NCBI GenBank assembly: GCA_003670925.1
Contig: QWQG01000165.1
Span: forward strand, 1-64,000
Origin: Planctomycetota bacterium
GTDB lineage: Bacteria; Planctomycetota; Planctomycetia; Planctomycetales; Planctomycetaceae
Length of the DNA: 64,000 bases
Direction of reading: 5' to 3'
Positions 55,021 through 60,915 of this stretch are shown piece after piece. Made by a program: the position numbers and the translations under genes. Position 1 is the first letter of the stretch, and the number at the start of each line of letters is the position of its first letter. The notes beneath the pieces are model-generated. The model saw only the letters and a program-made list of their open reading frames with translations, was not told the origin of the DNA and searched no databases.

Positions 55021-55458
55021 TTAATCGGGTATCAGCAGGTCAGAATCACGCAAGAAACGCACATCGCTGTGGCTTTGTTCAAGGCTAAAGGTTGGTGCCT
55101 GTTTGAGCCCGTTGGCTTCAATGATGGGAACCACTTCGGTCGCACCATTCTGCGTAACACGGACGGAACCTAGATCGGGACCCAGATGCACTCGAAAAAT
55201 GATCCCGGAAAATGACAACTGATCACCCGGTAGAAGCGCTCCGCGAATAACTCGCTGTCCATTGACGCGTGTCCCGTTGGTGCTAGCAAGGTCGCGCAAG
55301 TAAAGCAGTCCATCCGTTTTAACCAGAACGCAGTGCTGCTTGGAAATGCTGGTATGATCAATCACCAGATCGCAGAGTTTAGAGCTGCGTCCGACAATTG
55401 TAACGGCATTCTGCAGCGTAACCGGCGGTCCACCGCGTTGCGGAATCAACTGAGCCAA
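55021..55458 (-). CDS. FHA-domain protein
   Basis: 'TIVGRSSKLCDLVIDHTSISKQHCVLVKTDGLLYLRDLASTNGTRVNGQRVIRGALLPGDQLSFSGIIFRV'. Confidence 0.93.
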   Translation of the reverse strand: MAQLIPQRGGPPVTLQNAVTIVGRSSKLCDLVIDHTSISKQHCVLVKTDGLLYLRDLASTNGTRVNGQRVIRGALLPGDQLSFSGIIFRVHLGPDLGSVRVTQNGATEVVPIIEANGLKQAPTFSLEQSHSDVRFLRDSDLLIPD

Positions 55459-55902
55459 CATTGTGGCGAATCCTGCGAACAATGAAACGATAGACCGAAG
55501 CAGTCTCTTGTTACGCCAGTCTGTGGTTCCACGCCAAGACTTTCAACCTTATTTTATCTGGATTCCTCATCGTTTCGACACTTTCAACCACTTCAATAGA
55601 GGCGCCAGCCTGTTCATCGTAAAAGTCGCCTCGTCAAGTGACTGCTGGCGCAGCGCACAGCAGGTCGGAGCGTATGCTGCGTAAAAAAAGTATCGATTCC
55701 GCCAGTCGGGAACCCTTTCCCTAGGCTCGTAGGTTCATTAGACTCCGCAGTCACAGGCAGCTTACCGAATCTTCGTGAGGTGCCATGGATACGTAATCGG
55801 AATCCGATCGAATCTTATTCGACGTTTGTTCCAAATTGCGTATTCTGCAGCAATTAGGATGCGACTGGCGGCTGTTTGGGATGTCGGAAGGGAGTCTGAT
55901 TG

Positions 55903-57594
55903 ATGGCGTTTGAGCCGCAACGATTTATGCATGCTGCCAACATCCGGCTGGACGTTCCTGTCAGCGTCCAAACCGCTGAAGCTCTGACCGACGAGCTACG
56001 CTTTGCGTTTGAAGACGCCACATTGCACGCTTTTGAAGAGGTGATTGAAGCGTCTATTCGACACGAGGTGGACTTTCTGCTGTTGTCGGGAAACGTGTTT
56101 ATCGAAGCCGATCGGAGCCTTCGCGCGAGGCTGACACTCTTGAGAGGTTTTAGTCGGCTTGCGGAACACGACATTCAGGTCTTTGTTTTGCCGGGTGACT
56201 CCGATCCTCCTGAAGCATGGCGTGCAATCCCGGCGATGCCTGAAAATGTCGTTGTTTGTTATAGTTCAAACCCGGAACCCGAAGAGCTGTACGTCAAGGA
56301 TCGTCTTGCCACGACGCTTTCATCGTCGATGTGGTTTGGTGAAGCGGATGCGTTCGGAATTCGCGTGCTGGCGACGGGCACTGACGGCATTCAACCGTTT
56401 CGCATCGGTGTTGTCAGCAAGGGAAAATATGAAGAAGCTCGACGCATGGCGGCCATGGCTGCCTCTGCATCAGACGAAACGCTTGCTGCTTCGCTGCTGA
56501 GCATGGCGTCAGGTGAACAGCTCAGCGGCCCACAGTCGCCCGCCAATTCCGACGAAGGGGGATCCACCCGGGTTTGGCGTTCTATTGATGCCGAAAATGG
56601 CAGTGCTCCCCGGAAGGTCGACACGGGTCACCGAAGGGTGAAACGATCTCAGGAAACGCTGGAAGTCACGGCATCAGACGCACACCCCTCACTTGATGCG
56701 GGATTTATGCGATACGTGGATGAGATGCTGCAAGACGGTCAATTAAGTTTCTTGGCACTTACTGGTGAACTGGCGCGCACCACGCTGTGGAGGGATGCAG
56801 GTGTTGTGCACTGTCCTGGCACAACTCAACCACGCAGTCAGCTGGAAGCTTCAGGCGGCGCGTGTTCGCTAGTCGAAGTTTCGGAAACGGGCGAGGTTCA
56901 AATTTCTTCCGTCGATACGAGTTGTGTGGACTGGAAGCAGATTGACCTCAATGTCGCGCCGCATACCAATTTGTCGTCAATTTTACAGCAGATGAAGACT
57001 CTGTTGCAGGGACAGAAGCCCGGGGCGGCCGACCGCATCTGGTCGGTCCAGTGGATACTTCGCGGGGCATTGCCAGATCTGCAGGAACTGGCTCGCAATG
57101 ATCTGGACGTTGCGGCAGCCGTGGAATTGGATGAGCTCAAGCACACCGGGCGCATGATTCGCCTGTTACACGAACTTCGATCACTTCCCAATGCTTGGTC
57201 ACCGCATGATCCACCCACGTCGCTCGCCGATCAATATCAAGAGTTCGCCGAGAGATCCAGTGTGCTCACAGACGATGCCCTGCAGTTGCTGATCGACACC
57301 AACAAAGAGCTCACGTCCGGTTGGAAACAGCGGTTAACATCCTTACTGCCGGCGGTTGATCCGGAGCAGATTATGGCACAACTGCGAACGGACGGGGCGA
57401 CATGGTTTGTGCCTGATTTTGGCATGGCCGAAAACCGTGACGACGAATCAGACCAGATTGCTGTGTCGGATGACATCGATGTCGTACCGGATGCATCCGA
57501 AAAGAGGGACCGTGTTAGGGACCTTGACGAATCTGCAGACATCGATTCGGAAGACATTGATGACGACGCGGAAGAGGATGAATCCGATGACTAA
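55903..57594 (+). CDS. SbcD/Mre11/YhaO-like metallophosphoesterase-fold protein with degenerate metal-binding motifs
   Basis: 'FMHAANIRLDVPV', 'DFLLLSGNVFIEADRSLRARLTLLRGFSRLAEHDIQVFVLPGDSDPPEAW' align to the DxH, GD and GNHD motifs but lack the ligands; followed by a YhaN-like gene. Confidence 0.82.
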   Translation: MAFEPQRFMHAANIRLDVPVSVQTAEALTDELRFAFEDATLHAFEEVIEASIRHEVDFLLLSGNVFIEADRSLRARLTLLRGFSRLAEHDIQVFVLPGDSDPPEAWRAIPAMPENVVVCYSSNPEPEELYVKDRLATTLSSSMWFGEADAFGIRVLATGTDGIQPFRIGVVSKGKYEEARRMAAMAASASDETLAASLLSMASGEQLSGPQSPANSDEGGSTRVWRSIDAENGSAPRKVDTGHRRVKRSQETLEVTASDAHPSLDAGFMRYVDEMLQDGQLSFLALTGELARTTLWRDAGVVHCPGTTQPRSQLEASGGACSLVEVSETGEVQISSVDTSCVDWKQIDLNVAPHTNLSSILQQMKTLLQGQKPGAADRIWSVQWILRGALPDLQELARNDLDVAAAVELDELKHTGRMIRLLHELRSLPNAWSPHDPPTSLADQYQEFAERSSVLTDDALQLLIDTNKELTSGWKQRLTSLLPAVDPEQIMAQLRTDGATWFVPDFGMAENRDDESDQIAVSDDIDVVPDASEKRDRVRDLDESADIDSEDIDDDAEEDESDD

Positions 57595-57636
57595 ACGCGG
57601 GGTTGCAGGCAGAGAGGTCTGGCAGAGGAATTCGGC

Positions 57637-60600
57637 ATGAAGCTGACAGAAATTGACATCGATCGTTTTCGCATCTGGCGCAATCTGTTGCTGCGACTTG
57701 ATCCAAAGGGGCTCAATGTCATCTACGGTCCCAATGAGGCCGGTAAGACGACGTTGATGCGTTTTATTCGATCGACGCTTTACGGTTACGAGCCACTGAC
57801 CACAGAACCGGCATTTCATCGACCGGATGCCGAGCAACCTTGGCGTGGAGCAGTGCGGTGCGAGCATGGCGGTCGCACATGGCGAATTCATCGCCGGGCT
57901 GAAGCGGCGGGGCCCGGTCGGCTGAGAATTTCCGGCGGTCAGGAAGGTGTCGCTAAAGACGTCGCATTGGACGATATTCTGTCGGGAACCAGTGAAGATG
58001 TTTACGCCGATATCTTTGCGGTTGGTGTCCGCGAGCTGCAGCAGTTAGCGACGCTGGGCACAAATCAGGTTGCCCAGTACATCTATGGTCTGTCGCTAGG
58101 ACCGCAGGGGCGTCAAATCCTAGACGCTCTTGCCGATGTTAAAGAACGTCGCACATCGATGTTTGGCGAAGACCATCGGTCGGGGCGGATTCCGCAGTTG
58201 TTCGACAAATATGCCAACCTGTCGGGCAGCCTTCGCAACTCTGGGCAGGCACGCGACAAGCATGCAAAACTCACGCATCGTCGTCAAGATTTGCTCCAAG
58301 AAATTGAAGAACTTCAGCATCGGGAAAGCCATGTCACCAACGAATTGCGTGGCTTGCGGTTTCTTCAGAATTGTCACAAACCATGGAAACGCATCCGAGA
58401 TCTCCAAGCAGAACAGTCCGGGCTGCAGATCGTACCGACGAATCCTACCGAAGCTTTGAAACTGCTGGCAGCCGCAGAAAAAGATCTCCTAGAATCCACC
58501 AACCGCCGCGATAAACTCAACGAGCAGGCGACGCAACTGCGTTCGCAGGCCGAACGGCTGCAGACGGATCCATTATTTGACAAAGAACGCTACGCGATTC
58601 AAAGTCTTGTCGATCAAAGCGACTGGCTGCGTCAAATTGAGGAACAAATTCGGAATGCCGAAGAACGCTCGTCAGAACTACGACGTGAACTGAATCATCA
58701 GATGACTCAATTGGGCAGCGGCTGGGCGGTCGAACGCCTAAATTCGATTGACACATCACCGGCAGCTCATCATCGCCTGCTCGAGGCCGCTCGACGATAT
58801 CAAGATACCGTTCAGCGTCGCGGGAAACTCAGGCGAATGTTGCGGAGTATGACCAGACGTAGTCAGAAGGAACTGGTGGAACTCAACACACAACTGGACG
58901 TTGTGGGGATTCCCGTTTTCGATGCCATCGAACTTGAACAGTTGCGCTTGCGGGAGTTAGAGAATCTCGGACGCCTCCGCCTGCAGGAAGAGCAACTGGC
59001 GCTCAAGATCCAGACCGTGCGGCGTGTGATCGATCGCGTAGACACCGACGAATCGATTCCGGCGTGGGTTGATAAAACGATCACGACGATGGGTTGGATT
59101 GGGGCTGGATTGTGCTTATTTGGGATCGCGACTTTCTCGCTGGGCGGCGAACCACGCCGGGCCCTCGGCGGTGCACTGGCCGCAGCCGCGTTTGGTTTTG
59201 CCGGAATTATGTGGTGGGGAGTTCGCAACGGTCTGCGAAATAACTTCGACGCGAAGGTTGGGATTAAGCTCGATGACATTGCCGACGAAGCAAGGCAGGC
59301 CGACCGACAGTTGCGATTGTTGCAGGAGCGCATTGGCCGCATGTCTCTGGCAGGTCGCCACGAAGACGCCAAAAACTGGAAATCATCTACCGCCGAGATG
59401 GTTGATCGCATCGGTGATTGTTCGGCCCGGATCGCCGATCTGGAGGTATTGCAACGAAAACAGACACGTGCGGCGTCCCGACGCATGCGGTTGAAGATGC
59501 TACGAGAACGTTATAAATCGGCACAGCAAACCGTCAACGAGCAGCGCCAAGCGTGGTGTCGCGTACTGACCTCGCTGGGCATGGACGAAACGGTACGGAT
59601 CGAACAGGCGTTCGACTGGTGGCGTCGCATTCAGGAAGTACGTGAAATGTTGACCCAATGGCGCAATTCGGCACCTGAGGTAGAAGGCTTGCGGCGGATG
59701 TTTGAGGCCATGCGCATGCGTGTGGAGCAATTAGGAAACCGGCTCACAAATGCCAAGAAGATGAATTTTTCTCGACCGCTGGAAGTCCTCACGTCATGGC
59801 AACAGGAACTCAAGACTCATGATCGGGATCGCACTGAGAAGCATCGTCTGATTGCAGAAAGCGAAGCTAAGCAATATGACGGACGGCATACGCAACATCA
59901 ATTGGAAGCGGCAGAATTGCGTCGAAGTGCCGTGCTTGCCCGTGCGGGTGTGTCGTCACGGGAAGAATTGACCAAGCAACAAGAATCTGAAGCTCGACGT
60001 GTGCAATTAGCCGCGCAGTTGAAAAAAGCCAACGAAGAATTGATGGATGCGTCATCTGCGGAGACAGAATTGGCCATCGTGGAAGATGATTTGATGCGAT
60101 TTGACGCGCTCAATGCTCGTGAAACAATTCAACTGCGAACTTCCGAGTTAGCGGATGTTGAACAGCGGCTGAATAAAAATCACGAGGAATTGGGGAGTCT
60201 CAAACAAGAGATCAAATTGTTGGAATCCGGCCGCGATTCCCATGCAGAATTCTTTCGAAAATCGCGTGTCGCAACGGAGATTTATCGTGCCTCGGAAGAT
60301 TGGTTGGCGCTGCAAATTGAATATGCTGCTGTCATGCAGATCCGCCGTCGCTTTGAACAGGAAAATATTTCCGGCACACTTGTGACTGCGTCTGGCTACA
60401 TGCATCGCATGACATCCGGCCGCTACCATCGCATCTGGGCGCCGCTGGGAGAAGACTTGTTGTGCATTGACGATGAATTCGGGCAAACTTTTCGTGTTGA
60501 ACAACTCAGTGGTGGCACGCGGGAACAACTGTTCCTTGCCATCCGATTTGCACTGGTGCGTGAATTTGCCAAACGCGGTGTAGAGCTGCCGCTCGTGATG

Positions 60601-60915
60601 GACGATTTGTTTGTCAATTTTGATCAGGAACGCACGGCAGCGGCGGCGGACTGTCTTTTGGAAGTTGCCCGCGAGGGCCAGCAGGTTCTGTTCTTTACTT
60701 GCCATGAACATATTGCCCAAATGTTTCAACAAAAACAGATCGAACCGTTGTGGCTGCCTGGCCACAAGGTTGCCTATGATGCACTTAAGCCGGAGCACGA
60801 CGCATCACACGCCGAAGACGCACATCGAATCGAAGGCGGCAGGCTTGTCTCCGATTCCGATGAATTGCTCGACGATGCTTGGGATCAAGCTAAAAGCAGC
60901 GATTCTCTCGCATAG
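57637..60915 (+). CDS. SbcC/Rad50/YhaN-like AAA ATPase with long coiled coils and central hydrophobic segment
   Basis: Walker A 'YGPNEAGKTTLMRFIRSTLYGYEP'; signature 'LSGGTREQLFLAIRFAL'; Walker B 'LPLVMDDLFVNFDQER'; 'FFTCHEH'; central 'GWIGAGLCLFGIATFSLGGEPRRALGGALAAAAFGFAGIMWWG'. Confidence 0.93.
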   Translation: MKLTEIDIDRFRIWRNLLLRLDPKGLNVIYGPNEAGKTTLMRFIRSTLYGYEPLTTEPAFHRPDAEQPWRGAVRCEHGGRTWRIHRRAEAAGPGRLRISGGQEGVAKDVALDDILSGTSEDVYADIFAVGVRELQQLATLGTNQVAQYIYGLSLGPQGRQILDALADVKERRTSMFGEDHRSGRIPQLFDKYANLSGSLRNSGQARDKHAKLTHRRQDLLQEIEELQHRESHVTNELRGLRFLQNCHKPWKRIRDLQAEQSGLQIVPTNPTEALKLLAAAEKDLLESTNRRDKLNEQATQLRSQAERLQTDPLFDKERYAIQSLVDQSDWLRQIEEQIRNAEERSSELRRELNHQMTQLGSGWAVERLNSIDTSPAAHHRLLEAARRYQDTVQRRGKLRRMLRSMTRRSQKELVELNTQLDVVGIPVFDAIELEQLRLRELENLGRLRLQEEQLALKIQTVRRVIDRVDTDESIPAWVDKTITTMGWIGAGLCLFGIATFSLGGEPRRALGGALAAAAFGFAGIMWWGVRNGLRNNFDAKVGIKLDDIADEARQADRQLRLLQERIGRMSLAGRHEDAKNWKSSTAEMVDRIGDCSARIADLEVLQRKQTRAASRRMRLKMLRERYKSAQQTVNEQRQAWCRVLTSLGMDETVRIEQAFDWWRRIQEVREMLTQWRNSAPEVEGLRRMFEAMRMRVEQLGNRLTNAKKMNFSRPLEVLTSWQQELKTHDRDRTEKHRLIAESEAKQYDGRHTQHQLEAAELRRSAVLARAGVSSREELTKQQESEARRVQLAAQLKKANEELMDASSAETELAIVEDDLMRFDALNARETIQLRTSELADVEQRLNKNHEELGSLKQEIKLLESGRDSHAEFFRKSRVATEIYRASEDWLALQIEYAAVMQIRRRFEQENISGTLVTASGYMHRMTSGRYHRIWAPLGEDLLCIDDEFGQTFRVEQLSGGTREQLFLAIRFALVREFAKRGVELPLVMDDLFVNFDQERTAAAADCLLEVAREGQQVLFFTCHEHIAQMFQQKQIEPLWLPGHKVAYDALKPEHDASHAEDAHRIEGGRLVSDSDELLDDAWDQAKSSDSLA

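Follow-up and report, generated by a model that had tools for sequence, protein, structure and literature searches.

A pseudonuclease branch of the YhaNO family in planctomycetes, with a possible role in holding or sensing DNA

Can an Mre11-Rad50-type complex serve a purpose on DNA once its nuclease subunit has lost the residues needed for cutting? The question is raised by two adjacent genes in the window, a 64,000-nucleotide stretch of a planctomycete contig (QWQG01000165.1), in which the original prediction, made from the letters alone, recognised an Mre11/SbcD/YhaO-like protein with an apparently dead active site beside an intact Rad50/SbcC/YhaN-like ATPase. Both open reading frames are genuine and lie on the same strand with 42 bp between them:
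55903..57594, plus strand: pseudo-YhaO, Mre11/SbcD/YhaO fold, 563 aa, ATG at 55903, 0/8 metal/catalytic residues
57637..60915, plus strand: YhaN-type SMC-like ATPase, AAA_27, 1092 aa

The upstream protein, here termed pseudo-YhaO, is hardly recognisable by family models. No significant Pfam match was obtained, the Metallophos domain included, and all NCBIfam matches to Mre11/SbcD models fell below their cut-offs (TIGR00619, sbcd: 17.3 vs 77.65 bits). Still, when an AlphaFold2 model built from 36 relatives (mean pLDDT 74, most core blocks 80-97, with insert 202-262 and the C-terminal tail disordered) was compared with the PDB by Foldseek, 50/50 of the best matches were Mre11/SbcD chains (E 1e-11 to 2e-9, prob 1.00). 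The profile of the pseudo-YhaO family independently matches P. furiosus Mre11 (2.8e-16). The predicted structure thus shows the calcineurin-like (Mre11) phosphoesterase fold to be retained and, given that the best PDB matches are all of this type despite the missing Metallophos match, the degenerate motifs of the protein are neither chance nor misalignment.

Mre11-type phosphoesterases have seven metal ligands and a catalytic His (PMC4996933). When the 55903-57594 protein is aligned to intact YhaO and SbcD, its residues at the corresponding positions D8/H10/D49/N84/H85/H173/H206/H208 are N/R/N/D/S/S/G/L. None of the seven ligands (D8, H10, D49, N84, H173, H206, H208) is kept, the residues being N R N D S G L (0/7), and the catalytic H85 is replaced by Ser, with S/A/T/M found across the clade of this protein. 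The five degenerate motifs are exactly those originally quoted, and the claim of a nuclease subunit with a dead active site was borne out by the alignment (0/8 residues):
55930..55953, plus strand: degenerate motif I HAANIRLD, aa 10-17; D8 to N13 and H10 to R15, with N and R in 20/20 of the clade
56086..56100, plus strand: degenerate motif II SGNVF, aa 62-66; D49 to N64, with N in 20/20 of the clade
56191..56205, plus strand: degenerate motif III PGDSD, aa 97-101; N84 to D99 and catalytic H85 to S100, the next residue, D101, being retained
56410..56424, plus strand: degenerate motif IV VVSKG (GVVSKG, aa 169-174); H173 to S172, with S in 20/20 of the clade
56755..56772, plus strand: degenerate motif V ALTGEL, aa 285-290; H206 to G288 and H208 to L290
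57454..57591, plus strand: acidic C-terminal tail of pseudo-YhaO, about aa 518-563, predicted disordered (pLDDT < 50)

As judged from the alignment, loss of the chemistry at the eight original positions is well supported. Whether another chemistry has taken its place is a separate matter, as D99, D101, E289 or other conserved acids could in principle make up a new metal site, or the protein could catalyse a different reaction such as nucleotide hydrolysis. Consistent with such a reading, the replacements are fixed rather than random, with N8, R10, N49 and S173 invariant in 20/20 sequences like that of the window (for comparison, 37.5% of the first 200 columns reach 95% identity or more in the same 20 sequences); D101 and the PGxxQ loop (G306, Q309) are near-universal in dead and intact YhaO (alignment A2); and intermediate forms retain one half-site (D8/H10/D49/H208). 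However, the original positions have lost every His and every metal-site Asp, the sole acid there being the D/E at the N84 position, and in the remoter dead copies (class C) both the N/R/N/S replacements and D101 are absent. We consider an active enzyme of this kind distinctly unlikely.

The downstream protein scores 55.5 bits against the Pfam model AAA_27 (cut-off 22). Its ATPase head motifs (Walker A, signature and Walker B) are complete and invariant among 11 relatives, in agreement with the predicted intact partner:
57727..57750, plus strand: Walker A GPNEAGKT, aa 31-38; GPNEAGK invariant in alignment A1
60505..60528, plus strand: ABC signature LSGGTREQ, aa 957-964; conserved
60586..60624, plus strand: Walker B / D-loop LPLVMDDLFVNFD, aa 984-996; DD, N and D invariant in alignments A1 and A3
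59062..59232, plus strand: predicted two-helix membrane hairpin, aa 476-532, mid-coil in the place of the zinc hook, from hydropathy and predicted helices

The broader label of a Rad50/SbcC/YhaN-like ATPase held for its last member only. The protein is YhaN-type, matching AAA_27 rather than SbcC, and no CxxC zinc hook occurs in its 1092 aa; the identity of a zinc-hook Rad50/SbcC was consequently ruled out. At the corresponding place, the tip of the coil, helices are predicted at residues 476-501 and 506-572, joined by a 4-residue turn (the structure model of the ATPase, pTM 0.42, served for secondary structure only). The hairpin shows hydropathy peaks of 1.58 and 1.52 with 1-2 charged residues per helix, and the region is hydrophobic also in the relatives, most of which have a higher peak than the 1.58 of the 57637-60915 protein.

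A nuclease gene that has lost all its ligands, and whose product evolves faster than the ATPase, might be decaying and heading for loss. The orthologue alignment shows otherwise. Close orthologues do not retain the ligands: every one sampled from the genus has the dead motifs of the 55903-57594 protein (NRN..S) and 0/8 ligands. The frames are open, and across the genus pseudo-YhaO gives dN/dS values of 0.05-0.19, the N-terminal part of the ATPase values of 0.02-0.12. A second dead pair in the same genome (described below) is likewise under purifying selection (dN/dS 0.13-0.20), and degenerate copies occur in many families. A decaying copy amid intact orthologues, named beforehand as the contrary case, did not appear, and decay was rejected on the strength of dN/dS and conservation; we give it next to no credence. 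An adjacent upstream YhaO-like gene is present both for the 57637-60915 ATPase and for its relatives, and each gene of the pair was found in 14/15 other regions of the genus and its sister genus, some of these regions being contig fragments. As dN/dS and synteny show, purifying selection acts on both genes and their pairing is conserved.

The distribution of the pair was followed by a scan with the ATPase against one genome per species (85,488 species), blind to the active site of the neighbour, after which the neighbouring YhaO was scored. Among the matches listed, every neighbour outside Planctomycetota with both ends intact had 8/8 ligands, while incomplete neighbours there (L167, L172, L177) were not fully scorable. 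Within Planctomycetota, again among the matches listed, the scored neighbours retained 0-5/8, with L145 (8/8) as the single exception. In a tree of the ATPase head-domain columns, which contain none of the scored YhaO residues, ATPases with intact and with degenerate neighbours are split by a branch with SH-aLRT 99. The intact side holds ATPases with 8/8-ligand neighbours from several phyla together with the soluble planctomycete YhaN, and the degenerate side (0-5/8) is almost entirely planctomycete. L089 is an exception, on a very long branch and of unsure placement. The YhaO tree is concordant: one side of it holds 58 degenerate copies (SH-aLRT 93, with a long-branch caveat). Both trees, which point to a single origin, are built from divergent sequences with long branches; in them the dead pair appears as a coherent, largely planctomycete-restricted clade. 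A derivation of class C from an intact soluble planctomycete pair was not supported, the class C ATPase falling on the dead side of the tree.

Among 110 genomes sampled across the phylum, the best-scoring copy was degenerate in 7/7 genomes of the window's own family that had a match, and 17/30 of the best-scoring loci overall were intact. A few YhaO-like genes of other planctomycete families are degenerate too (L235 in G074, L241 in G135, L244 in G117), which makes further independent losses possible. A half-site class in Pirellulales (Rhodopirellula, Stieleria, Pirellula and Adhaeretor; loci L112, L125, L139, L144, L147, L151, L120 and similar) reads DHDxx[HY]GH. Here D8, H10, D49 and usually H208 are retained, a set which we take from the P. 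furiosus Mre11 structure to be metal site 1, and N84, H85 and H206 are lost, presumably metal site 2 and the catalytic His. The clade of the 55903-57594 protein has lost both sets. The distribution of half-site and 0/8 copies suggests that metal site 2 and the catalytic His went first, and metal site 1 later.

The membrane hairpin follows a related pattern. Among the planctomycete pairs with intact YhaO, YhaN was without a hairpin in 10/12 measured (L043, L047, L048, L050, L051, L058, L060, L083, L086 and L088; maximum hydropathy 0.5-1.4), the exceptions being L089 and L145, whereas degenerate pairs retain it, most of class C excepted. As intact YhaN pairs outside Planctomycetota also carry the hairpin, it was ruled out as a hallmark of the dead pair; it is probably ancestral to YhaN and therefore by itself no marker of new function. 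On this reading, the membrane-type complex would have lost its nuclease within planctomycetes and the soluble one retained it.

The genome of the window holds further members of the family. Contig C163 (L042/L096) encodes a second, distinct pair of class C, consisting of a pseudo-YhaO of about 390 aa with the motifs FLHTDSLRLG / IAGKFTES / IGGYPEID (0/8 ligands) and a YhaN-like ATPase; no clear membrane hairpin is seen in this pair. The proposed search for a canonical SbcCD elsewhere in the genome was positive, as an intact SbcD adjoins SbcC on contig C258, so that the cell need not rely on the dead pair for cutting. Searches of 18 genomes of the genus, this one included, turned up no intact YhaO. 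A different, intact phosphoesterase adjoining a P-loop ATPase (VYGKNESGKS) was seen in G026 (L205, contig C26), representing another MR-like pair.

The co-occurrence of dead and intact subunits bears on the possibility of a regulatory pseudonuclease, which would pair with, or compete against, an intact SbcCD or YhaNO and so tune its nuclease. A dead pair and an intact YhaO are found together in many planctomycetes (e.g. G022, G027-G029 and G033-G035), and the genus of the window has its intact SbcD. Conversely, no intact SbcD or YhaO, only degenerate ones, was found in three single-contig genomes of the family (G018, G021 and G030) by sequence-based searches, which a very divergent copy could escape, and every dead YhaO adjoins its own ATPase. 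Regulation of this type is hence unlikely, and from the three dead-only genomes it seems that an active partner of SbcD/YhaO type is not obligatory.

The surroundings of the pair bear on a different alternative, in which the complex would act as an anti-invader sensor, in the SMC manner of Lamassu or Wadjet, instead of in repair or tethering. The ATPase head weakly matches LmuB-type and other defence ATPases, mainly in the P-loop region, and a dead nuclease with an intact ATPase would fit a sensor. However, no single named PADLOC system was matched by both proteins, as pseudo-YhaO gave no match and that of the ATPase was partial and mostly P-loop-level. The 15 other regions of the genus and sister genus showed no third recurring gene beside the pair. 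The neighbourhood is not conserved and lacks a recurrent linked effector, and nearly all genus and family members have the pair, unlike a patchy defence system. With no PADLOC match for pseudo-YhaO and no recurrent effector, assignment as a defence system was rejected, and we regard such a role as very unlikely. Since the flanking genes are not conserved with the pair, a third operon partner or a nuclease next door was ruled out as well. An FHA-domain-like protein is encoded divergently upstream (55021-55482, minus strand); in relatives it is not conserved with the pair.

On balance we favour, by a modest measure of confidence, a YhaNO-type (Mre11-Rad50-like) pair with a pseudonuclease subunit that acts as a membrane-tethered, ATP-gated and non-cutting DNA clamp, tether or sensor. 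Pseudo-YhaO and YhaN would form a heteromeric complex, in which the dead phosphoesterase domain would provide a scaffold and a DNA-contact surface, and the YhaN head, by binding and hydrolysing ATP, would open and close the clamp on DNA. Tethered to the membrane via the predicted hairpin, the complex may hold, tether or sense DNA (ends, forks or incoming DNA) without cutting it; cutting in this genome, where it occurs, would fall to the separate, intact SbcCD. The nuclease-deficient SbcCD-H84Q retains its DNA-stimulated ATPase with a loss of about 15% (PMC6265447). The dead nuclease, the intact ATPase and their conservation all support the clamp, tether or sensor originally suggested, the function itself being our inference. 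More tentatively, and with somewhat less than an even chance of being right, the pair may represent a long-lived planctomycete subfamily of Mre11-Rad50 type in which the nuclease was lost stepwise, which now, anchored in the membrane and gated by ATP, tethers or senses DNA, and which in some species is the sole SbcD/YhaO-type complex detected.

Mre11-Rad50 complexes act on DNA both by cutting and by holding or sensing it, and the separation of these roles has relied on engineered mutants. If the favoured reading is true, a natural and long-conserved loss of the cutting chemistry alone would directly show selection for the ATPase-clamp function by itself, and a graded natural series (8/8, half-site, 0/8) is available for testing such clamp-only selection. 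Annotation as DNA repair exonucleases by homology only would be incorrect for a large part of Planctomycetota.

No description of a nuclease-dead YhaO/Mre11 in planctomycetes, or of this clade, was found in the open-access literature (subscription papers were outside the scope). The suggested unrecognised class stands as a coherent, largely planctomycete clade, but not as a new kind of complex: the pair is a pseudonuclease branch of the known YhaNO (SbcEF) family, conserved in many planctomycetes. One paper lists YhaNO under LexA/SOS as a putative cluster for DSB repair (PMC3896406); another implicates it in DSB repair, in a role that is poorly characterised (PMC6452273). With YhaNO of Bacillus and relatives the pair shares the order yhaO-yhaN, the AAA_27-type ATPase, the mid-coil hydrophobic hairpin and the Mre11-fold partner; it differs in that Firmicute and other non-planctomycete YhaO with both ends intact have 8/8 ligands (among the matches listed), compared to 0/8 in pseudo-YhaO. 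With SbcCD/Mre11-Rad50 it has in common the phosphoesterase fold and an adjacent Rad50-like ABC ATPase, but it lacks the di-metal site, the catalytic His and the CxxC zinc hook, and its SbcD model score is below the cut-off. A single change of the active-site His has been used to abolish nuclease activity in SbcCD-H84Q (PMC6265447) and Mre11-H125N (PMC7260605), comparable to motif III of pseudo-YhaO; these are laboratory variants with one change, whereas in pseudo-YhaO all eight positions have changed in an evolved and stable form. The B-subunits of eukaryotic DNA polymerases alpha and delta are likewise inactivated phosphoesterases turned scaffolds in a DNA-processing complex (PMC4996933), as pseudo-YhaO may be. 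However, these calcineurin-like proteins, related to archaeal DP1, have polymerases rather than SMC-like ATPases as partners, and were presumably inactivated independently.
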